Source: Sulfurimonas sp. (GTDB taxonomy: Bacteria > Campylobacterota > Campylobacteria > Campylobacterales > Sulfurimonadaceae). Taken from it: a DNA stretch of 37,911 bases. The stretch covers positions 1-37,911 of the forward strand of contig JALWLL010000091.1 in assembly GCA_026996295.1 (NCBI GenBank). Reading direction: 5' to 3'. Shown piece after piece: positions 6,306 through 29,492 of this stretch (its first letter is position 1; each line of letters starts with the position of its first letter). The position numbers were made by a program, and so were the translations under genes. Below the pieces are notes generated by a model, which saw only the letters and a program-made list of their open reading frames with translations, made no database searches and had not been told where the DNA came from.

Positions 6306-7403
6306 TCACATATCTCTAGCGAGTGTAAATACATGGCTAAACTCCTCTTGATAGGAAGCACACCTGTCACACACAGGATCTCCTCCACGGTAGGGGTAGG
6401 GGCACCTGCACTCTACACACATAACCATCTCATAGTGAACCAGCTCTTCACCTCTGTCATAAGCAACATTTACAAGATCTATTCCCGGAAGCGTTGCTAT
6501 GGCATCGGTTTTACAGATATGATCACAAATGCCACATGCTATACAATTGCCTGTATTAAAATTAATCCCCTGCTTATCTTCTGTTGGCAGTAGCGCTTGT
6601 GTCGGGCAAAACTGGATACAGTCTCCACAGTTCGTGCACGATTCAAAACTAATCGCCTTTTGAGCAAACAGATCAAAGTTACTTTCATGAGAAGTGTAAG
6701 ATAACTTAGACAAATTTCGCTTTAAAGCTTGTTTTAAATGCAAAAACTTTAAGGGCAAAGCACTTGTATTTGGATCCTTTTGATATGCTGCGGTCATTGT
6801 CAATGATGTTGTGGACTCCTCTTGTGCCGATTCTTTTACTTTTGTAAAAGCAGCTTTAAACAGTGCCCGTCTGCTATTGTCCTCTTTAGGTCTCTGCTCA
6901 AGAGTTTCTACAGTGCCATCAACACCACAAAGAGAAAAAAAGTTATTTGCTTTTGCTATCTCATCACGGATAAATTTCTCAACTTTTTGTTCTGTATTGA
7001 GAGCACACTCCCCACAATGACTCAAATCACATTGAGGCATCTCATCGCTATCAAGACCCATAGCGATATAATGGTGTGCATCAAAAACCCCTAAACAGGT
7101 TGTTGTTTTTTTGCAAGAGAGCAGTTTTTCCTTATTGTCCTTAAAAGCTACAGTATAAGCATTTGGATCAAATCCTGCGATACTAAGCGCTTCTGTCGGA
7201 CAAGAACCTACACATGCAGCACACTCTATACACTCATTGCAAAAGAGTGTCAGCTTATTCCTGACAATATGAAAAGCTCCCTGTGGACAAATATCAACAC
7301 AGAGCCGGCACGCATTATGGTAGTAATCATTTCTTATGCAGTTCACTCCACTGTAAGAGAAAAGCTCACTTTTTTGAACAAATGTTATACTACTCATACA
7401 CAT
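6306..7403 (-). CDS. Cytoplasmic polyferredoxin (multiple 4Fe-4S clusters plus C-terminal Cys motifs)
   Basis: CRLCVDICPQG, CNECIECAACVGSCPTEA, CTNCGDCIQFCPTQA, CIACGICDHICKTDA, then CVECRCPYPYRGGDPVCDRC; no signal peptide. Confidence 0.85.
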   Translation of the reverse strand: MCMSSITFVQKSELFSYSGVNCIRNDYYHNACRLCVDICPQGAFHIVRNKLTLFCNECIECAACVGSCPTEALSIAGFDPNAYTVAFKDNKEKLLSCKKTTTCLGVFDAHHYIAMGLDSDEMPQCDLSHCGECALNTEQKVEKFIRDEIAKANNFFSLCGVDGTVETLEQRPKEDNSRRALFKAAFTKVKESAQEESTTSLTMTAAYQKDPNTSALPLKFLHLKQALKRNLSKLSYTSHESNFDLFAQKAISFESCTNCGDCIQFCPTQALLPTEDKQGINFNTGNCIACGICDHICKTDAIATLPGIDLVNVAYDRGEELVHYEMVMCVECRCPYPYRGGDPVCDRCASYQEEFSHVFTLARDM

Positions 7404-7965
7404 CTTCCTCTAATGAAGCACAATACTCATAGTCTGCTACTATAAATTCTGTAATAAAATCGCATATCTCTCTGTAAAAAGGGGTAATTGCCATCGATTT
7501 CATTCCTATCATATAAGGGACAACCCAGTTAAAAAGATGCTCTTGCAAAAACCTGAATTGAGGTTTTTGTTCACCTCTAAAAATAAGCGTTTGCATAAAA
7601 GCAAGTTCAATAGAGAGATGATCAGGTGCCATCAGTTCTGTTTGATCCATATTAAGCTCAAAGCCGTTTTGATAGTAGAAATTCATTACAGGATTTTGTA
7701 GTCCAACAAGCGTTTCATTTTTTGCATCAAGCACAAAAGACTCTACAGCTTGGGTGTTGACCACAAACATTGATGAAAAATCTTCATTTAAAGCATCTAA
7801 AATCGTTGCATCATCATGAGTGGCAAACCATTGAACACTCTCACTTCCAAGAAGTTCAAGAAGTTCACTGTTACCCCTAAGATCGCTGATATATCTTTTA
7901 TCGGGTGCTGATGCCATTGTTCTTGATAAAAATGCATATATATAGAGTCTATACTCTTTGTTCAT
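7390..7965 (-). CDS. TorD/DmsD-family molybdoenzyme maturation chaperone
   Basis: All-helical, about 190 aa, MNKEYRLYIYAFLSRTMASAPDKRYI...PDHLSIELAFMQTLI; overlaps the polyferredoxin gene and lies near a molybdoenzyme operon. Confidence 0.8.
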   Translation of the reverse strand: MNKEYRLYIYAFLSRTMASAPDKRYISDLRGNSELLELLGSESVQWFATHDDATILDALNEDFSSMFVVNTQAVESFVLDAKNETLVGLQNPVMNFYYQNGFELNMDQTELMAPDHLSIELAFMQTLIFRGEQKPQFRFLQEHLFNWVVPYMIGMKSMAITPFYREICDFITEFIVADYEYCASLEEDVYE

Positions 7966-8063
7966 CTGTAATCCTATAGTGTATAATATTTGGGATTTTT
8001 ATCATAACTTCACTTATATGCAAGTACATCTGTAAAGTTCATTAAAGAGTGTAGCAGAAGTTA

Positions 8064-8100
8064 TAAGAAAAACACCTCTTAAAGCCCTAAGGCTTTAAGA
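8064..8100 (-). terminator. Rho-independent terminator closing the molybdoenzyme operon
   Basis: Perfect 10-bp stem TCTTAAAGCC-[loop]-GGCTTTAAGA at 8077-8100 immediately after the stop at 8101; minus-strand continuation GGTGTTTTTCTTAT supplies the U-tract. Confidence 0.8.
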
Positions 8101-8595
8101 TTATAAACAACCTTTAAAGAATGACTTCTTAGGCGGTGGTGGCGCTTTAAATTCTTTCGCTACTATTGTATTTGTAGCAGGGTCATATTCACCAATAATA
8201 GTGACATCATTACGGTTGATACCCTCATCGATCTCATGTGTAGGTATAGCTGAAACATCCAGTTTGTATGTTACTCCGTCTTTGTGTGAGTAGAGTACAA
8301 TCTGAACATCTTTTTGAACACCCGGTTCAGCTGTTCTAAAACATCCATCACTGCCACATGCATAATTTTCAAGATAACAATCTGTAAAAGCACCCTGTGC
8401 AGCACAAGAGTCTATAGTTAAGAAACCTTGCTTTTCAATATGCGCAAGCTCAGGTTGCTCTTCTACCTTGCTCTGAACCTTTTTTTCAACTTCAGCTTTA
8501 GAAACAGGGGCAACCTCTGAACTTGTAGTACAACCACTCAATCCAAATATGACGCCAAGCACTAAAACAGAAGAGATTAAACGTATCTTTTTCAT
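8101..8595 (-). CDS. Cys-rich lipoprotein of unknown function in molybdoenzyme operon
   Basis: Lipobox GLSGCTTS; several further Cys (CAAQGAFTDC, ACGSDGC, terminal KGCL); abuts the gamma-subunit gene. Confidence 0.75.
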   Translation of the reverse strand: MKKIRLISSVLVLGVIFGLSGCTTSSEVAPVSKAEVEKKVQSKVEEQPELAHIEKQGFLTIDSCAAQGAFTDCYLENYACGSDGCFRTAEPGVQKDVQIVLYSHKDGVTYKLDVSAIPTHEIDEGINRNDVTIIGEYDPATNTIVAKEFKAPPPPKKSFFKGCL

Positions 8596-9794
8596 TATTC
8601 AACCTCCGCTTTAAGAGTTTTTAAATATGCCACGATATTATCAATATCGCCTGACTCCATCCATGAAAAGTCCGGCATTGTAGATACTCTTTTGCCATTT
8701 TCAAGATTATACCATGCATAATTGCTGTGAGCGTTTCTGTTATAACCAGGAACAACCACGGCAGAAGGCTTCATTAAAGACTCTTTTATATAATCAACGG
8801 TAGCATAACCACCAATGTTTGTAAGAGATGGTCCCATCAAATTTGCAGCATCATTTGATGTCATCTGATGACATGATGTACAGTTCGCCGCTGCGATCTC
8901 TTTCCCTTTTGCTGCATCACCTTCAGGTTCTTTTGTAAGTGCTTTGAGCAACTCTTCTCCACTGCTTTTACCATCAAGCTCAACTGCCAGCCAAGGGGTA
9001 AGATACTTTAGTCCATTACGACCCATTTTTGCACCGTCCCAAACAGCAAATGCAACCGGAATAACACCTGCATCAAGATTAACATAGTCATCTTTAAGTG
9101 CTCGAGAAAGTGTACCTTCCCACCCTTTGCCGACATAGCCTATACGAGAATATGAATCGTTACTTCCATCTTTGATCTCTGTCATTGAACGGAAACCTTC
9201 ACTTACAAAACTTCTCTCATAGTCGTTGCTCGCGAGTTTTTTTACACTTTTTTTGAACTTTGCAAGATCTTTACCAAAAAGATCTGTTTGATTAGGGTTT
9301 ACCTGATGGGCAACATCCCCCTTTCCGTTAGGTTCAAAAATACCCATAGCCTCCTTTTGAAGATGGATAACAACAGGACGACCCTCAGAACCCATACCTA
9401 TGTATGGAAGCTGTGTCGGGTTAGAGTACTCAGAAGCAAACTGCACGGCAAAACCATCTGAATACACATCTGTCGCATATCCCTTTTGGATATTTTTCGT
9501 TCCATCAGGCCACTTGATCATAAATGCAATTTTTGAGCCATTGTACACCGCAGCAACTTCTGCTTGTATAGCTTTGTTGCCTGCATTAAGTTCATTTGCT
9601 TTTTTATCATTGAACTCTATACTGGTTTGAGGATATAAAGTAATCTTTGAGAACTGTTTATTGTTCCAAACACTGGATTTGTAATTGACCTTATCTAAAT
9701 TATCATCAACTTCAACTGCCAATATAACCGAGCTTGCAGCTAAAGCTGAAGCCATAATACCGGCTGCTAAAAATGTAGTTGCTAATTTTTTCAT
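8595..9794 (-). CDS. Type II DMSO reductase family gamma-like heme-binding subunit fused to a mono-heme cytochrome c domain
   Basis: Signal peptide; N-terminal region resembles ethylbenzene-dehydrogenase-type heme-binding domain (VWNNKQFSKITLYPQTSIEFND...IAFMIKWPDGTKN...FAVQF); C-terminal GKEIAAANCTSCHQM...MGPSLTNIGG..YNRNAHSNYAWYNLENGKRVSTMPDFSWM cytochrome c. Confidence 0.82.
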   Translation of the reverse strand: MKKLATTFLAAGIMASALAASSVILAVEVDDNLDKVNYKSSVWNNKQFSKITLYPQTSIEFNDKKANELNAGNKAIQAEVAAVYNGSKIAFMIKWPDGTKNIQKGYATDVYSDGFAVQFASEYSNPTQLPYIGMGSEGRPVVIHLQKEAMGIFEPNGKGDVAHQVNPNQTDLFGKDLAKFKKSVKKLASNDYERSFVSEGFRSMTEIKDGSNDSYSRIGYVGKGWEGTLSRALKDDYVNLDAGVIPVAFAVWDGAKMGRNGLKYLTPWLAVELDGKSSGEELLKALTKEPEGDAAKGKEIAAANCTSCHQMTSNDAANLMGPSLTNIGGYATVDYIKESLMKPSAVVVPGYNRNAHSNYAWYNLENGKRVSTMPDFSWMESGDIDNIVAYLKTLKAEVE

Positions 9795-10918
9795 TAATGA
9801 TGTCCTCCTGCACTTGAATGACCACCGAAGAAGTTCATTTTATGAGTTGGTTTTGTATATTTTCCAGCTATATAACGGTTATCTACCGGTGCCAATGGAT
9901 GCTGAGAGTTCTCACGAGCAACCTCTTGGTAGTAGTTGTTATCTAAACGGAACATATCTGAGTGTTGGTATGCGATCAAAATATCCATAAGTTCACTCTC
10001 TCCCGTCTCTTTACGTTTTTTCATCTCTGCTTTGAGTGTTTGTATAGAGGCATGTACTTCCGGGCCAAAAAGTTTTTCAAGCTCTTCGATCGGAAGACGG
10101 GTAGAACCCTCTATAATCTTACCATCAGCATCAAATTTTGCCGGTGATTCGGTTGGTGGCACATAGTACACATTTGGTTGTGTACCATAATCTGTTCTCA
10201 GACCCAGCGCCACTTTGTACTTATGAACAAGTTTATACACTTGAGAATCTTCGTCATCCAAAAAACCGACAAAACGGATACGACCGACACACTGTTGTGC
10301 ACACGCCGGTGGAAGCCCCTGCTCAATTCTTGGAAAACACAAGATACACTTCTCAGATTTTGAGATCTTCGGATTGAAATAGATCTTTTTATAAGGACAT
10401 CCCGCTATACAATAGCGATACCCCTGACATCTGTCTAAATCAACCAACACAACACCATCTTGCTCACGCTTAAAGATAGCATCACGAGGACAAGCACTCA
10501 AACACCCCGGGTTTGTACAGTGATTACAGATACGAGGAAGGTAGAAAAAGTAGTTGTCCTGTGGAAAGACACCTGCACCCTCATCTTCATCCCAGTTTGG
10601 ACCCCATGTAGGTTCTACATTTGGCTCAAATGATGCACCCTCTTTGAGTGCATCATAGTTGTAATCCCAAGGTACCCCATAATCCGCTTCCAAATTTGGA
10701 ATAATTCCGGGTTGAAGATCACCCGCCTCATCAAAACCACCACCAAGCTCCATCCAGTTTTTAGGATACCCTGTACCCGGATATGTCTCAACATTATTCC
10801 AATACATATACTCACGACCGTTACGGTTGGTCCATTGGGTTTTACATGCTACAGTACATGTTTGGCACCCGATACATTTGTTCAGGTCCATAACCATTGC
10901 TAATTGTCTTTTTGACAT
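9794..10918 (-). CDS. NarH/EbdB-like iron-sulfur beta subunit
   Basis: CIGCQTCTVACKTQW, CNHCTNPGCLSACPRDAI, CQGYRYCIAGCPYKKIYFNPKISKSEKCILCFPRIEQGLPPACAQQCVGRIRFVG. Confidence 0.92.
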   Translation of the reverse strand: MSKRQLAMVMDLNKCIGCQTCTVACKTQWTNRNGREYMYWNNVETYPGTGYPKNWMELGGGFDEAGDLQPGIIPNLEADYGVPWDYNYDALKEGASFEPNVEPTWGPNWDEDEGAGVFPQDNYFFYLPRICNHCTNPGCLSACPRDAIFKREQDGVVLVDLDRCQGYRYCIAGCPYKKIYFNPKISKSEKCILCFPRIEQGLPPACAQQCVGRIRFVGFLDDEDSQVYKLVHKYKVALGLRTDYGTQPNVYYVPPTESPAKFDADGKIIEGSTRLPIEELEKLFGPEVHASIQTLKAEMKKRKETGESELMDILIAYQHSDMFRLDNNYYQEVARENSQHPLAPVDNRYIAGKYTKPTHKMNFFGGHSSAGGHH

Positions 10919-10927
10919 CTATGCTCC

Positions 10928-13828
10928 TTAAACTTTTGCTTTTTCATAATTTACGGCGCCATCATATGCGTACTGATTACCGTCCCAAAGACCACCAAAT
11001 TTCAGGTGACCCCAACCATCTGCCATCTCAAGCAGGTTTAGCGATGTAGGCACAACTTCATTGTGACCTTTGTTAAATTTATACATATATGGTTCCCATC
11101 CATGCTCCATTACCAAGCCATCAGCAGGTGATGAAGATGAAAGTTTCGCCATCGCGAAGAACTCTCCGAGATTGTTGTAAACACGAATCGTATCTCCATC
11201 TTTAATACCTTTGGCTTCTGCAACCTTACGATTGAGTGCAATTGCAGGAACACCACGTTGTAAACGAAGCAGTGTGCGAGATGTTTTATAGTTAGAGTGG
11301 ATCGACCATCTGGCATGTGGAGTCATCAGCACATACGGATACTCTTTGCGTTGTGGACGGATCCCCTCCATACCTGTATTTGTCGCGGCACCCATTTTAA
11401 TGAACATCGGATGATCTATATAAAAAGTTTGACGACCGGTAACCGTGTCCAATCTTTCAAATTTGTAAATATGGTTCTCCATAGAACTGTATGGTTTATC
11501 TGAATACAGCGGTGATGACTTTGCAGCCTTTTCATTGATAAGCAAGAAACCACCCATTTTATACATCTTCTCTATTGTCCAAGGCTGATACTGATCACAC
11601 TTCTCTAGCGCTGCTTCGAGTGCCATTTTATCAGTACCGAGATACACCTCACCCTCACCTTCTGATTCTGCATCTGTGTTCGTATATTCTTTGTGGAAGA
11701 TACTCAAGTCATGATAGCCCGGTTTTGCATAACGCACATCATCTTTGACTTTTGCCTTTGCAATATTTTCAGGGCGATTAGCGATCTCTTCGAGTTTTTT
11801 CGCCAGGAGTGTAAACATACTCCACTCATCCATAGACTCACCGATATTTTTAATATTTGCAACCGGATATGCCAAGTTTGTAAAACGGTGATAACCCGGA
11901 GATGTACGAAGATCATATACTTCATAGTGAGATTTCGCTGGAAGTAGTACATCTGCATACTGTGCAGCTTCACTCATTCTGTAATCTACATACGCATAAA
12001 AGTCCATTCTTCCTAAAAATGCTTTACGGTATTCATTCCCTTTATTACGTCTGAATGTTGAATCTGCAACAATCAATGCAGTTGTCGGCAACCACCAAGG
12101 TTTTACAACATTACCATGATCACTACTCAAGTTGGCACCGCCATTTTTACCGGCATCAAGCATCTCCTGAAGTACTGTCATATACTCTTTTTTACTCATC
12201 CCGTTTTGGGCACGCTTGACATCTTCATCTTGAAAATACTCATCGAAAGTTTTCATCCCGTTGCCGTTCATAAACTCACCGACAAAACCGGAACCAAAAC
12301 GTGGAGCATATTTACCGCTAAATCCTGAAAGTGCTCCAAGTCCGGCAAGCTGGAACTCATTTTCAGTATTCAATCCGCCATATGGTCCCATGCGACCCGT
12401 AAGACCACAAATAGAAGATATATTCCAAATGGTCATCATACCGTTGAAGTACTTATTGAGTGAGAAACCGGTAGTGATCTCAACAACCTTTGGCAATGCG
12501 ATATCGCGCGCTAGTTGTTTCACTGTATCTGGATGAACCCCTGTTATCTCCTGCGTTGTCTCAGGCGCAAATTTTGCAGCTGATTTTTTAAGCATTTCAA
12601 AAACAGTGGTTACCTCTCTTGTATGACCGTGAACATCGGTGATAGTAAAAGTACCCTCTAGTGCCGGAACAACATCTTTTGGAAGACGCAAAGAACGATT
12701 TTCATGCGTTTCTGTACCCGGCATAAGATAAGGCTCACCGCTAGTGGTGTTCATGCAGTAAAACTGCTCACCCCACGCATGGTGCTCCTCTTTATCTTCG
12801 GTATGTTCCATATCGGTACGACGGATCATCTGTTGCGTTTTGACATCTACTAGCATCGGAAGGTCAGTATAAAGCTTCATAAATTCAGGCTTATAGAGTT
12901 TTTCTTCCAAGATTGTCTGTATAACACTCATTGCCAAGATATTATCACTACCCGCTTTGATCGGGATCCAAAGGTCAGCTGATTTTGCCGTTGCGTTGAA
13001 TTCCGGAGTGATGACAATGATTTTTGCACCATTATACTTTCCTTCCCATACAAAGTGAGCATCCGGGATACGCGAAACAGAAGGGTTACCACCCCACATA
13101 ACAGCTGTGTCAACCGTGTACATAAAGTCCCACGTACAACCAACATTACCCTCACCATACGCAATAGCGGCACCGGAGAACATATCTCCAAGATAAGATG
13201 ACGGATAGATACGGTTTGCGCCCAGTTGTGTAGAAAAACGAAGCACTGAACCACGACGACCCTCAGTTAAAAGACCGGTACCGGCATGAACCATCAACTT
13301 ATCCGGCCCACGCTCCGGATCTGTCAGCGTATCGAAAATATTTTGACAAATTTTCTCAGCAGCCTCATCCCAGCTCACTCGTTTCCATTTCCCCTCACCA
13401 CGCTCACCGGTACGAACCATTGGGTAAAGGATTCTATCTTTTTGGTACATCACTTGCGAGTGCTGAACACCTTTGTTACATCCACGAGGGTTAAAATCAG
13501 GTATTTTAGCATTGATCACCGGATATCGGGCTGATTGGTTTTCACGGGTGATAACACCATTGTGAGACCAAACTTCCCATGCACAGTTTCCTTGACAATT
13601 TACACAGTGGTAAGCAAAACCGTGCTCCTCTTTTTTACCATAAGTAAAAGAGAACTCATTTCTATACATCTCTTCTGTGTAGCTTGTGTTTGGGTAATCA
13701 TTTTTACCGTTTTCAACACTTATTACATCTGTTTTCGCAAAAAGGCTGCCTTGAGAAGCAACCAACGCAGCAGTCATCCCTGAAACTTTAAGGAAATTTC
13801 TACGCTTATTATTCATAACTTTTGTCAT
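10928..13828 (-). CDS. Tat-exported molybdopterin oxidoreductase alpha subunit, type II DMSO reductase family (substrate unknown)
   Basis: Tat signal RRNFLKVSGMTAALVASQGSLFA; FS0 motif H-x3-C-x3-C...C (HCVNCQGNC...PRGC) as in NarG/type II enzymes; SSYLGDMFSGA places a candidate Mo-ligand Asp. Confidence 0.9.
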   Translation of the reverse strand: MTKVMNNKRRNFLKVSGMTAALVASQGSLFAKTDVISVENGKNDYPNTSYTEEMYRNEFSFTYGKKEEHGFAYHCVNCQGNCAWEVWSHNGVITRENQSARYPVINAKIPDFNPRGCNKGVQHSQVMYQKDRILYPMVRTGERGEGKWKRVSWDEAAEKICQNIFDTLTDPERGPDKLMVHAGTGLLTEGRRGSVLRFSTQLGANRIYPSSYLGDMFSGAAIAYGEGNVGCTWDFMYTVDTAVMWGGNPSVSRIPDAHFVWEGKYNGAKIIVITPEFNATAKSADLWIPIKAGSDNILAMSVIQTILEEKLYKPEFMKLYTDLPMLVDVKTQQMIRRTDMEHTEDKEEHHAWGEQFYCMNTTSGEPYLMPGTETHENRSLRLPKDVVPALEGTFTITDVHGHTREVTTVFEMLKKSAAKFAPETTQEITGVHPDTVKQLARDIALPKVVEITTGFSLNKYFNGMMTIWNISSICGLTGRMGPYGGLNTENEFQLAGLGALSGFSGKYAPRFGSGFVGEFMNGNGMKTFDEYFQDEDVKRAQNGMSKKEYMTVLQEMLDAGKNGGANLSSDHGNVVKPWWLPTTALIVADSTFRRNKGNEYRKAFLGRMDFYAYVDYRMSEAAQYADVLLPAKSHYEVYDLRTSPGYHRFTNLAYPVANIKNIGESMDEWSMFTLLAKKLEEIANRPENIAKAKVKDDVRYAKPGYHDLSIFHKEYTNTDAESEGEGEVYLGTDKMALEAALEKCDQYQPWTIEKMYKMGGFLLINEKAAKSSPLYSDKPYSSMENHIYKFERLDTVTGRQTFYIDHPMFIKMGAATNTGMEGIRPQRKEYPYVLMTPHARWSIHSNYKTSRTLLRLQRGVPAIALNRKVAEAKGIKDGDTIRVYNNLGEFFAMAKLSSSSPADGLVMEHGWEPYMYKFNKGHNEVVPTSLNLLEMADGWGHLKFGGLWDGNQYAYDGAVNYEKAKV

Positions 13829-13844
13829 ACTGTAAACCTCTTCC

Positions 13845-15041
13845 TTATCTTTTTAACGGTAAGTTCATATCATTACCCCAAACATCCCAACTACCTGTAA
13901 ACACCTTAATGTTTTTATATCCAAGAAGTTTTAATGCTGTTATGTGTTCAGAGCCACGACCTGCACCAACCATGCAATATGCATAGATTGTTTTATCTTT
14001 ATCCACACCATATTTTTCATATACTGCTTTCAACTCTTGCGCTGACTTGAATGATTTTTTATTTTTTAAGTCAGAGATTTTATTCCATTCGATAAACTTT
14101 GAACCGGGTATATGACCGCCACGGGCAACATTGTCCATTTTGCGCTCACCGATGATCTCACTCATTGCGCGTGAATCGATAATCACATACTGAGAGTTTT
14201 CTCCATTTTTGAGGATATCTTTCATTGCATGTACCACTTCCTCTTTTGCGGCGATATTTGTAAAGTCAATGTTGTTTTTATCTATCTTGTAGGTTCTTGG
14301 TGTCACATGTTCTTCACCTTTAACCACCATAAGATCTTTTTCCATTGCTTTCATTTTTTTCTTAAGCTTTTTGATCGTTTTATTACTTTGTGCTACAATT
14401 GCTTTGAGTTCAGCTATCTCTGCATCACTCAACTCTATCTTGCCTTTTTTGGCTTTTTTAAGTTTTTTCTTTGCAGGTTTTGCTTTTCTTTTTACTTTTT
14501 TCGCTTCAGCTTTTACAGCATCGTACTTGATCTGCGCCGGATCAATTTTCATAATTGCTGCGCGACCACCATTGAGTATTTTAATATTTTTGTGTCCATA
14601 ACTTGTAAAGAAAGAGTAAACACCCGTAGCATTTGGTCCTTTAAAATCATCATAAGCTATAATCATAGTATTGTTATCAATACCTTTTGAGCCTATGTAC
14701 GCTTCTGCATCATCAATACATCTGTATAAAGGTGCACAATGCATTGTTCCGGTAATATCTGAATGATGCAAATGGTGCGCATACATCGATACCGATCCTT
14801 TTATGTGTCCAAGCTTATATACATCTTCTGTATCACCGGAAACAAACATAACATTATCTTTGCCTATTAATTTTATAGCTTCCTCTGCAGAAATCAAAAT
14901 ATCTTCGTTGGCATACCCTTTTTGTACCGCAGCCATCTCTGCTTCAGCAGATCCCAAGATATTTCCATTTTCACTAGCTATTATAAAAGGTGTAAATGTT
15001 ACTGTTGCTGCAACAACTAATGTCTTTAGCAATTTTTTCAT
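13845..15041 (-). CDS. Exported tandem rhodanese-domain sulfurtransferase with Lys-rich linker
   Basis: Signal peptide MKKLLKTLVVAATVTFTPFIIAS; two rhodanese-like domains; C-terminal loop AYCMVGAGRGSEH carries the candidate catalytic Cys; linker KKVKRKAKPAKKKLKKAKKGK...KTIKKLKKKMKAME. Confidence 0.85.
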   Translation of the reverse strand: MKKLLKTLVVAATVTFTPFIIASENGNILGSAEAEMAAVQKGYANEDILISAEEAIKLIGKDNVMFVSGDTEDVYKLGHIKGSVSMYAHHLHHSDITGTMHCAPLYRCIDDAEAYIGSKGIDNNTMIIAYDDFKGPNATGVYSFFTSYGHKNIKILNGGRAAIMKIDPAQIKYDAVKAEAKKVKRKAKPAKKKLKKAKKGKIELSDAEIAELKAIVAQSNKTIKKLKKKMKAMEKDLMVVKGEEHVTPRTYKIDKNNIDFTNIAAKEEVVHAMKDILKNGENSQYVIIDSRAMSEIIGERKMDNVARGGHIPGSKFIEWNKISDLKNKKSFKSAQELKAVYEKYGVDKDKTIYAYCMVGAGRGSEHITALKLLGYKNIKVFTGSWDVWGNDMNLPLKR

Positions 15042-26030: not shown

Positions 26031-27467
26031 CTATTTTGCGTTTTTAATGATATCTGCTCTTGGGAAAGTAAATGTTGATTTTCTAAAAACAACGATTGTA
26101 TCTTCATGATCTAAAGCATATGCACGAATAGTGATCGGAATAATCGTATCGTGTCTGTCGTCGTTTGCCAGCATATCATATGTTCGAAGCACTACGATCT
26201 TTTTCTTTTTGATTCCAGGTACGGCCGTAAACGCTCTGGAAGGTTTTGCGATCTCAATCGTTCCGTTGATATCTTTTGGCAGAATAACCTCAAAATAATA
26301 CTTATGTTTTTCATTTTCAGTATTTTGAAGTAAGAACTCATACGCATTATCCACACGAACTCTGCCGTCTGGCATCTTCTTCACAGCATATAAACGGTTT
26401 TCTTTGTTGATATTTAAAAGCATATGCTCTTTTGTACTTCCCATCATCCCCAAAATAACCGCAAGACCAACAAGTAGAGCAATATAAGCAAGAACTTTAG
26501 GGCGAAAATATTTTGTTTTTCCTTTTTGGTCTATGATCTCATAATCACTTGACCAAGTAATAAGAGAAGGTTTACCGAGTTTTCCCATAACCGTTGTACA
26601 GGCATCAACACACTCTAAACAGTTGATACACTCAAGCTGAAGCCCCTTACGAATATCGATATGGGTCGGACATACAGTCACACAAGACTCACATGCTGTA
26701 CACTCGGCATTTGGCTCAACCGCTTGAAGATCTTTTTGTTTTGTGAACTGTTTATGTTTATGTTCATCATAGATATGTCCCCCTCTGTGTGGGTTATATA
26801 GTGCCATAACAGTGTGTTCATCATACAAAACAGACTGGACTCTTGAGTATGGACATACATAGATACAAAAATTCTCCTTTAAAAAAACGATGTCGTATAT
26901 TAAAAATGCCGCAATTCCGATAATAGAGCCTATCAGCGTCCAGTGTTCAGTCGGATTTGACAAATACGCAAAGAAATCTTCAGGCGGAACAAAGTACCAT
27001 AAAAAGTCAGCAGCTGCAATAAGTGCCAGAATGGTCCACAAAAGGATGGCAATAGCTTTTTTCACCTTATTTTCAGGCTTGCTCATATCGGGCTCTTGCT
27101 GTTTATTTTTAATGCGTTTACGAAGTTTTAAAAGTTTTGTCTCAATAAGATCACGATAGATGACACGAAATGTTGTTTGGGGACACACCCATCCACAAAA
27201 CACACGCCCACCCATAACCGTCATACCAAAAATACCCAAGAACATAATCATAAGTAAAAATGGCATCAGGTAAAGCTCTTGCATATCAAACTGTACAAAA
27301 GCAAGATGAAGCTTAAGCTTATCAAAACTTAAAAGGAAAAAATGATTTCCATTCACCGTAATCCATGGCAAGACCAATGCAACTACTGTGACAAATGCAT
27401 ATAAGTAATAGCGTTTCACTCTCCATGGAGTTGGGATCTTAAACCCCTTTTTTTTCTCTGCACTCAT
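26031..27467 (-). CDS. ccoG: Cytochrome c oxidase accessory protein CcoG (RdxA/FixG family)
   Basis: TMs plus GRVFCGWVCPQTTFR, FCIYVCPYSRVQSVLYDEHT, CTACESCVTVCPTHIDIRKGLQLECINCLECVDACTTVMGK. Confidence 0.96.
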   Translation of the reverse strand: MSAEKKKGFKIPTPWRVKRYYLYAFVTVVALVLPWITVNGNHFFLLSFDKLKLHLAFVQFDMQELYLMPFLLMIMFLGIFGMTVMGGRVFCGWVCPQTTFRVIYRDLIETKLLKLRKRIKNKQQEPDMSKPENKVKKAIAILLWTILALIAAADFLWYFVPPEDFFAYLSNPTEHWTLIGSIIGIAAFLIYDIVFLKENFCIYVCPYSRVQSVLYDEHTVMALYNPHRGGHIYDEHKHKQFTKQKDLQAVEPNAECTACESCVTVCPTHIDIRKGLQLECINCLECVDACTTVMGKLGKPSLITWSSDYEIIDQKGKTKYFRPKVLAYIALLVGLAVILGMMGSTKEHMLLNINKENRLYAVKKMPDGRVRVDNAYEFLLQNTENEKHKYYFEVILPKDINGTIEIAKPSRAFTAVPGIKKKKIVVLRTYDMLANDDRHDTIIPITIRAYALDHEDTIVVFRKSTFTFPRADIIKNAK

Positions 27468-27494: not shown

Positions 27495-28130
27495 TTATTC
27501 TGGACATGTAATTTTGTCAATTACATCTTTTTGCGTATTTTTTGGCAGTTCCGGCAGTAATGAGCCGTGTGCAACCTGTTTAAGTTCTCTTGATTCTATA
27601 TAATCTTTCAATGAACTTCTGCTCACATTCAAAAGCCTAGCCATCTCACTCACACTTTTTTTCTCTTTTATATATCCAATGATCTCATTGATATATTTAT
27701 CAAATTTGGAGTTTGATCTACTTCCTTTTGGTCTGCCGACAACTTTTTTTGATTCGTTCTGTATAGTTTGACGAAACTGATCGATCAAACTCAAAACCAA
27801 CATCACATTGCTCTGAGGAGATATTGTAATAGATTGTTTTATAAAATGAACAGTATACTCATTTTTCAATAAACAACTAATCATTTGAATAATATCTTCC
27901 ATATCAGTACTCAGTACCCAGACATCTGAAATCAGAAGTGTACTTCCGACATGTTGACGAAAATATTCTGCAACATCAGGTCTTTGTGCTAAACGTTTGT
28001 TTTGTGAAGTTTGATCGATAAATTCATCATCTATTTGTAGGTTGTTTGACAATGCATATGCATTGATCAGCTGAAGCTGTTCATGTATAGCATCAAAATG
28101 TTTATCTGGACGTATATAAGCAAGTACCAT
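27495..28130 (-). CDS. Degenerate serine-recombinase/resolvase-fold protein with C-terminal HTH, probably a DNA-binding regulator
   Basis: Resolvase-like layout with AYIRPDKHF in place of YARVST and ISDVWVLSTD in place of LDRLGRS; C-terminal VGRPKGSRSNSKFDKYINEIIGYIKEKKSVSEMARLLNVSRSSLKDYIES HTH. Confidence 0.8.
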   Translation of the reverse strand: MVLAYIRPDKHFDAIHEQLQLINAYALSNNLQIDDEFIDQTSQNKRLAQRPDVAEYFRQHVGSTLLISDVWVLSTDMEDIIQMISCLLKNEYTVHFIKQSITISPQSNVMLVLSLIDQFRQTIQNESKKVVGRPKGSRSNSKFDKYINEIIGYIKEKKSVSEMARLLNVSRSSLKDYIESRELKQVAHGSLLPELPKNTQKDVIDKITCPE

Positions 28131-28164
28131 AATAACGACTAAACCTCTCTCTTATGTGAATTTC

Positions 28165-28223
28165 ATCGTCATTATACTATTTACTGACGATATAAGTCAA
28201 GTATTTTTTGCTTTATTTCGTCA
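28165..28223. promoter_or_regulatory. Candidate operator cluster: ATCGTCA...TGACGAT inverted repeat plus third TTCGTCA
   Basis: ATCGTCA 28165-28171, TGACGAT 28185-28191, TTCGTCA 28217-28223, overlapping the promoter. Confidence 0.6.
28171..28200 (-). promoter_or_regulatory. Sigma70-type promoter of the resolvase-like regulator / ccoG unit
   Basis: Minus strand TTGACT (28195-28200) - 18 nt - TATAAT (28171-28176). Confidence 0.75.
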
Positions 28224-28249
28224 AAATTAATATAAATTATGATTTTTAT

Positions 28250-28281
28250 AATACAATGCATAAACTATTATGCATTGTATT
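28250..28281. repeat. Perfect 14-bp inverted repeat with 4-nt loop
   Basis: AATACAATGCATAA-ACTA-TTATGCATTGTATT, just 3' of the TraF-like gene stop. Confidence 0.7.
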
Positions 28282-28289
28282 TGTATCTG

Positions 28290-29492
28290 CTACCACCCAA
28301 TACTTAGCTTAGCCATATATCTTCTATCCGGGATATCGACACTGCCTGTACCCACTTGTTCCTGGTATGTTGCAAAGTTGAGTTTGAGCAGTGTAAGTTC
28401 CAAATCGATCCCTGCCGTATAAGCACCCTGATACAACCCGCCACTTATGGCAGTTGAGAAGTATGTGGAATCAATAAGTCCAACATTTACACCCAGGCGC
28501 AGTCTCTTTGTAAAGTCAGACTCACTGTAGTCTGTGTACTTGACAACATTACCCTCATCGTTATACTCATACAGACGAACTTTGTTTGCTTCAAACAGGT
28601 CAACATAATCAACAGCGATAACAAGCTTGTCAACATAATCAACATCAGGAGAGATCGATGCGCCAATATTTACAGTCATAGGTTGCCCGCCGTAATTATC
28701 ATCCATATCCATAGGTCCAATGTTTAAAATACTCAGACCGAGTGCAGGATTCCAAGAGCTCCCTTGAAACGGGTAGTATTTTACACCGATATCCAGCCCC
28801 ATACCTGAAGATGTTTCTTCATACTTATCTCGCAGCTGCTCTCCTATATCGTCACCATTGGTCAGCTCACTTACACCCAAGGCACCCTCGTACGATGTTT
28901 GTTGGATATATTTTAAACCCAAACCAACATCCAAACGGCCTATTTTTGTATGGTATGGTTTTGCGAAACCTAAAACAACTCCACCATATACACGTGATGA
29001 TGTCTCCAAAAGACCACCGTTGGAACTACCGTTAGCATGTGTGACATAGTTTATATCTGCCGCAGCCAAAATACCTATGCTCCATGCAAACGCATCAGAG
29101 TTTTTAGATAGCGCACTATAGTTATCAACACCTATGTGAAAATAATCCCCTGCATACTCTTGAAGCACGGCAACCACTTCCGCATCGTCACCACTGTCTG
29201 AAGCGGTGTTGATATCATCTACAAAGGTTTGTGTTTTCTCGCTTGAAGAGACACCGATACCCAACAAATCAACAACAAATCCATGCTCTTTTTTTATACT
29301 CGCAAGACCGGCAGGGTTTGAAAAAACAGAGGTTGAGTAGCCGCCAACTGCAACATTTGCACCTCCCATCGCCATGATTCTAGGATCTTTGTAAAGATAG
29401 GCATGCTCACCATACATTGCCATGAGCGAAGTTGTTGCACCAAGAAGTGCCAAAGATATAATTTTTTTTGTTTTTGTATTCATTGCCTGCAC
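28290..29492 (-). CDS. TraF_2-like outer membrane beta-barrel protein
   Basis: Signal peptide; MAMGGANVAVGGYSTSVFSNPAGLASIKKEHGFVVDLLG; many amphipathic strands; C-terminal aromatic/W. True start may be the second Met (MNTKTKK, 29483). Confidence 0.72.
   Translation of the reverse strand: MQAMNTKTKKIISLALLGATTSLMAMYGEHAYLYKDPRIMAMGGANVAVGGYSTSVFSNPAGLASIKKEHGFVVDLLGIGVSSSEKTQTFVDDINTASDSGDDAEVVAVLQEYAGDYFHIGVDNYSALSKNSDAFAWSIGILAAADINYVTHANGSSNGGLLETSSRVYGGVVLGFAKPYHTKIGRLDVGLGLKYIQQTSYEGALGVSELTNGDDIGEQLRDKYEETSSGMGLDIGVKYYPFQGSSWNPALGLSILNIGPMDMDDNYGGQPMTVNIGASISPDVDYVDKLVIAVDYVDLFEANKVRLYEYNDEGNVVKYTDYSESDFTKRLRLGVNVGLIDSTYFSTAISGGLYQGAYTAGIDLELTLLKLNFATYQEQVGTGSVDIPDRRYMAKLSIGW

Follow-up and report, generated by a model that had tools for sequence, protein, structure and literature searches.

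A resolvase-like gene upstream of ccoG

The window (the whole stretch of Sulfurimonas sp. DNA analysed here, 37,911 nucleotides) contains on its reverse strand a gene for a resolvase-like protein, followed after a gap of 27 nt by ccoG on the same strand, an arrangement already described in the first-pass annotation. By family, the ccoG product is a membrane [4Fe-4S] protein and cupric reductase of cbb3 oxidase assembly; cupric reductase activity of CcoG has been reported, and its loss in C. jejuni halves cbb3 activity (PMC8267372). The features of the unit and of the encoded protein are listed below.

27495..28130, (-) strand: resolvase-like gene, putative regulator; ORF with ATG start, 211 aa
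28104..28106, (-) strand: Asp9 codon, catalytic-serine column in the Sin alignment
27873..27875, (-) strand: Cys86 codon; Cys in 65/65 orthologues
27504..27506, (-) strand: Cys209 codon; Cys in 65/65 orthologues, in the weakly modelled C-terminal tail
26031..27467, (-) strand: ccoG (TIGR02745, E=1e-137), downstream gene in the same unit
Residues ~1-125 of the 211-aa protein: resolvase-fold domain with a dead active site
Residues 132-137: GRPKGS arm
Residues ~142-181: helix-turn-helix (HTH)
C-terminal tail: final residues I-T-C-P-E

Agreeing with the fold and C-terminal HTH recognised earlier, the protein passes the family cut-off of Pfam Resolvase (PF00239, E=1.2e-7), and an AF2 model derived from 65 orthologues (pLDDT 82) has its best PDB matches among the gamma-delta, Tn3 and Sin resolvases (Foldseek, E 2e-7 to 1e-3). 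The first 36 PDB matches are serine recombinases without exception (36/36), with IS607 TnpA and other serine transposases among the weaker ones. The nearest curated model, NCBIfam NF009949 for Mpi-type DNA invertases, is matched weakly, at 46 bits for a cut-off of 272, through the GRPKGS arm and HTH region; unlike these invertases, the protein lacks the catalytic residues, and no invertible segment was seen here. The first-pass annotation was mistaken on one point, as the long linker helix (helix E) is shortened rather than retained, with ~14 columns of intact invertases absent from the orthologues.

Loss of the active site and conservation of the DNA-binding region

Residue columns were mapped through the alignment with Sin and a family alignment of the 65 orthologues, which represent nine or more families of a single order. 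The nucleophile column (gamma-delta S10, Sin S9) falls on residue 9, an Asp in this protein, and is occupied by Asp in 29 orthologues, Lys in 13 and other residues in the rest, but by Ser in none (0/65). Arg is likewise absent from all 65 orthologues at both columns of the LDRLGR arginines (gamma-delta R68 and R71). Replacement of the catalytic Ser by Asp and loss of the two arginines, first noticed in this single protein, are thus borne out, the missing nucleophile and arginines being common to the whole set. Other active-site residues survive: R7 (gamma-delta R8) in 59/65 orthologues, and R50 (gamma-delta R45) and Q18 in 65/65.

Across the orthologues the invariant positions cluster in the arm and HTH, beside C86, C209, Q18 and R50. 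Arm and HTH are near-invariant as a whole, with GRPxG, S139, S141 and D144 in the arm and R171, S173, D176, S180 and R181 in the HTH fully invariant. Cys86 and Cys209 are the only conserved cysteines, and the sole ones in 38/65 orthologues; the tail carrying Cys209 has a pLDDT of about 50–67 in the AF2 model and its placement is of low confidence.

Distribution, inheritance and linkage to ccoG

Strong matches (E below 1e-21) occur in about 120 of the 299 sampled genomes of Campylobacterales. Judged from sequence comparison, the gene is inherited vertically and under purifying selection: the ccoG-linked proteins form a single clade (SH-aLRT 99) within which most taxonomic families cohere, and dN/dS is 0.016–0.12 across seven close pairs. 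The linkage to ccoG, which the first-pass annotation had named together with the dead site as something to follow across relatives, is well kept, ccoG lying immediately downstream on the same strand at 68/71 loci. Of the three unlinked loci, one (L052) is truncated where its contig stops, and the other two are in family f17 genomes, where ccoG is truly not adjacent and the orthologues (L027, L073/L299) have also lost the C-terminal tail, Cys86 and Cys209. One family f17 orthologue is convergent with SCO1-like and PCuAC-like genes.

Sixteen Sulfurimonadaceae genomes lack the resolvase-like gene and retain ccoG with the same flanking genes; in Sulfurimonas without it, the gene is simply absent between metH or omp and ccoG. 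In family f20, a pseudogene remnant precedes an intact ccoG (L075 and L164, G163), marking a recent loss.

A conserved candidate operator at the promoter

The region upstream of the gene carries a near-consensus promoter and two copies of an inverted repeat.

28185..28223, (-) strand: candidate operator O1, TGACGAaataaagcaaaaaatacTTGACTTataTCGTCA, with half-sites at 28218-28223 and 28185-28190
28195..28200, (-) strand: -35 hexamer TTGACT, adjoining an O1 half-site
28171..28176, (-) strand: -10 hexamer TATAAT, its last base common with an O2 half-site
28133..28171, (-) strand: candidate operator O2, TGACGAtgaaattcacataagagagaggtttagTCGTTA, with half-sites at 28166-28171 and 28133-28138

We consider TGACGA-N26/27-TCGTCA, which falls within the stretch 28130-28290 named by the first-pass annotation, to be the probable operator of the resolvase-like protein on the strength of its conservation. 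With up to two mismatches it is found upstream of the gene at 62/71 loci, against 0.7 expected from dinucleotide shuffles of the 71 upstream regions, and with up to one mismatch at 50/71. The half-sites are spaced 32–34 nt start to start, other spacings being empty or nearly so among the 71 loci, and the 33-nt spacing is common to all families. An earlier reading of the operator as ATCGTCA-N13-TGACGAT around the -10 was rejected, because this motif arises where two 39-bp sites stand back to back, and the 33-nt spacing is universal.

The promoter TTGACT-N18-TATAAT (28200-28171) agrees with consensus at 11/12 positions and is bracketed by O1 and O2. In most families the downstream half-site of O1 abuts a -35-like TTGACTT. 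O2 spans the -10/start region and ends just short of the ATG; in Sulfurimonadaceae this second, downstream site lies 52 bp from O1, and several families keep the upstream O1 only.

The operator beyond its own promoter

Genome-wide scans were made by pattern matching. A stricter pattern, TGACGA-N17-TNGACTT-N3-TCGTCA, run over 34 genomes, recovered two units at 0–1 mismatch, that of ccoG and another encoding a single-span protein of 62–73 aa (small-TM) and an M48 peptidase; at up to two mismatches it was absent from all 14 searched genomes without the resolvase-like gene. A W-rich pattern (up to one mismatch) was present in 29/35 Sulfurimonadaceae with the gene versus 1/16 without, and this lone match falls inside a coding frame. 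The operator is thus missing in 15/16 gene-less relatives that retain ccoG, and was found upstream of the small-TM gene in none of the six gene-less genomes that retain the latter (0/6). Loss of the operator together with the gene amounts to ~4 independent changes, of which ~3 agree and none contradicts, too few for significance.

Elsewhere the operator lies upstream of SLAC1/TDT transporters (G016 L172, G034 L318), a rhodanese (G302/G227, L174/L180), an SQR-like flavoenzyme (G302, G326 and G227; L175, L321 and L319), a DUF6858 gene (G060 L179) and a FeMo-Co-domain and small-TM pair (family f17, L110, L115). Genes of the same kinds follow ccoG in other families: FeMo-Co, small-TM, SQR-like and rhodanese genes in f18, SQR-like and DUF6858 genes in f4 and f6, an SQR-like gene in f5 and f22, and a SLAC1/TDT gene in f20. 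This match between ccoG-operon genes and genes with dispersed operators argues more strongly than any other evidence for a real operator and for the gene set as a regulon. Several predicted members carry the operator in just one to three genomes, and single-genome targets could individually be due to chance; their recurrence in ccoG operons supports them.

The small-TM protein (L105:1615-1824 and relatives) has the motif EPxLxxIxDYxxLKGEKKxVVW and matches no Pfam family; its gene always precedes the M48 peptidase gene in the Sulfurimonadaceae loci read, and lies downstream of ccoG in f18. DUF6858 (PF21651; L287:3757-4149, L179:2114-2506) gains a context from the ccoG operons of f4/f6 and the operator in G060. 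In family f17, the operator is instead located ahead of a FeMo-Co-domain gene whose product has a tail rich in His and Cys.

Proposed mechanism and alternatives

The first-pass proposal of a domesticated, non-catalytic DNA-binding regulator is strongly supported by the loss of the nucleophile, the HTH, dN/dS, vertical inheritance, ccoG linkage and the operator. On this comparative evidence, the protein very probably regulates ccoG and the operator-bearing targets listed above by binding DNA. We suggest that this domesticated resolvase works as a one-component transcription factor under its own control, and that it is probably a repressor switched by two cysteines; we hold this composite reading to be likely.

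A serine resolvase or invertase would have been captured once, by the ancestor of many Campylobacterales families, and turned into a transcription factor. As Tn3 TnpR binds res and already represses its own promoters (PMC7157771), losing catalysis and keeping repression would be a short step. A dimer would contact TGACGA-N27-TCGTCA with its arm and HTH. O1 of Sulfurimonadaceae overlaps the -35 and spacer, and O2, five helical turns away, the stretch between the -10 and the ribosome-binding region; the protein, once bound, should thus keep RNA polymerase out, leading to autorepression of the regulator-ccoG unit and repression of the other targets. Since O1 and O2 together cover the promoter, we infer autorepression, and a repressor is in our judgement the probable form of the regulator. 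Typical resolvase dimer sites are 28 bp long. It speaks against the proposal that the 39-bp operator is ~11 bp longer than this, which the shortened linker does not explain.

With less certainty, a thiol switch formed by Cys86 and Cys209 would release or change DNA binding; it is suggested by the invariant cysteine pair together with the sulfur-flavoured targets, and we rate its chances as about even. Sulfide, polysulfide or persulfide, or else a related redox stress, would be the likeliest cue, given that the SQR-like enzyme, rhodanese and SLAC1/TDT join ccoG among the recurrent targets. A sulfur signal is a tentative element of the model, to be held more loosely than the switch. Copper is sequestered by sulfide, which also inhibits haem-copper oxidases; a link between the reduction of copper and the handling of sulfide would therefore be sensible. 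It may even be, though we think it improbable, that the recombinase scaffold serves as a reactive-sulfur/redox cysteine sensor controlling copper reduction and sulfide-handling genes, with paired O1/O2 dimers reusing the synapse as a repression clamp.

The first-pass annotation, which mentions neither the invariant cysteine pair nor the operator, had placed the output in cbb3-oxidase/copper maturation. This stands insofar as ccoG is the constant target, but the targets also include SQR-like, rhodanese, SLAC1/TDT, DUF6858, FeMo-Co and small-TM/M48 genes, a set no less indicative of sulfur/redox physiology than of copper. The same evidence bears on a copper sensor, in which the two cysteines would bind Cu(I) and ccoG would be tuned for cbb3 oxidase assembly. 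Two cysteines could bind Cu(I), and ccoG, the one constant partner, encodes a cupric reductase whose loss in C. jejuni halves cbb3 activity (PMC8267372); however, copper ATPases or chaperones are not among the other targets, and in the loci examined no operator lies near other cco genes. We therefore regard the copper sensor as unlikely, and the presumed ligand as more probably a sulfur or redox signal than copper by itself.

An activator or architectural (looping) protein, with O1 and O2 dimers paired as in a resolvase synapse, has a similarly small chance of being correct. The 52 bp between the sites, about five helical turns, the tetramers formed by serine recombinases and the retention of just the upstream O1 in several families would fit it, but in Sulfurimonadaceae the half-sites run into the -35 flank, the spacer and the -10, a placement that normally blocks polymerase, and a near-consensus promoter does not need an activator. 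Much less likely is an operator owned by some other transcription factor, with the dead recombinase merely a member of that factor's regulon: the operator is assigned from sequence and co-loss events are few, but it is missing in 15/16 genomes without the gene, and HTH and half-site are co-conserved over several families.

A recombinase using another nucleophile, with the operators as crossover sites, would account for the persistence of R7, Q18 and R50 and for paired inverted repeats resembling recombination sites, but is scarcely credible with Ser and both Arg absent from their columns in all 65 orthologues and a promoter orientation relative to ccoG that is uniform at every locus, no inverted version occurring among the 71. 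Hardly more plausible is a CcoG assembly partner with a relic HTH, as the tight ccoG linkage would allow, given that the arm and HTH are the most conserved part and that 16 Sulfurimonadaceae genomes keep ccoG without the gene.

Relation to known systems and significance

The putative repressor resembles Tn3/gamma-delta TnpR and Sin in its fold, C-terminal HTH and paired inverted half-sites at its own promoter, and differs from them in the lost nucleophile and LDRLGR arginines, the shortened linker helix, the 39-bp sites, the two invariant cysteines and a chromosomal location with vertical inheritance alongside ccoG. IS607 TnpA and the serine transposases share the serine-recombinase domain in an unusual arrangement, but are catalytic and mobile, with an N-terminal DNA-binding domain. 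SqrR and CstR are autoregulated, two-cysteine, sulfur-responsive repressors that target rhodanese, SQR and transporter genes. BigR has two cysteines, binds the -10 region and responds to sulfide/polysulfide (PMC5823870), and the analogy suggests that it may be a functional counterpart of the resolvase-like protein. Common to all three and the present protein are two conserved cysteines, rhodanese/SQR/transporter targets and the make-up of a small autoregulated repressor, the last two presumed in our case; unlike these ArsR- or CsoR-fold proteins, ours has a serine-recombinase fold and its sulfur signal is putative.

In the open-access literature we found nothing relevant on a ccoG-resolvase pairing, Sulfurimonas resolvase regulators or non-catalytic serine-recombinase regulators, and no chromosomal, vertically inherited, catalysis-free recombinase family devoted to regulation; such a case is also absent from the parts we consulted of a review of co-opted mobile elements (PMC8987985). 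Repressor activity of resolvases is old knowledge from Tn3, and the new side would be a regulation-only chromosomal family. If our reading is right, a transcription factor goes unrecognised under the routine annotation 'recombinase family protein' in some 120 of the 299 genomes sampled from the order, and a testable operator and gene set become available for asking how sulfur or redox state is linked with respiration and the handling of copper in sulfur-oxidising Campylobacterota.

Other observations

Weak matches in family f9, with Ser replaced by Asn, were considered as diverged orthologues and rejected, as the tree separates them and their neighbours are rplI-hslV-hslU, not ccoG. This f9 gene (L078, L079, L081, L082, L084, L028, L087, L090) encodes a resolvase fold in which Asn occupies the nucleophile position and LNVFGR replaces LDRLGR; it lies upstream of rplI-hslV-hslU (with another gene between in L078), divergent from ubiX/coaD/tmk-like genes, and is perhaps another domesticated recombinase. 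Elsewhere in the window, positions 6306-15041 hold, by eye, a molybdoenzyme cluster with DMSO-reductase-type large, Fe-S and cytochrome-like subunits and a TorD-like chaperone, beside which lies a rhodanese-like protein (13845-15041, also by eye).
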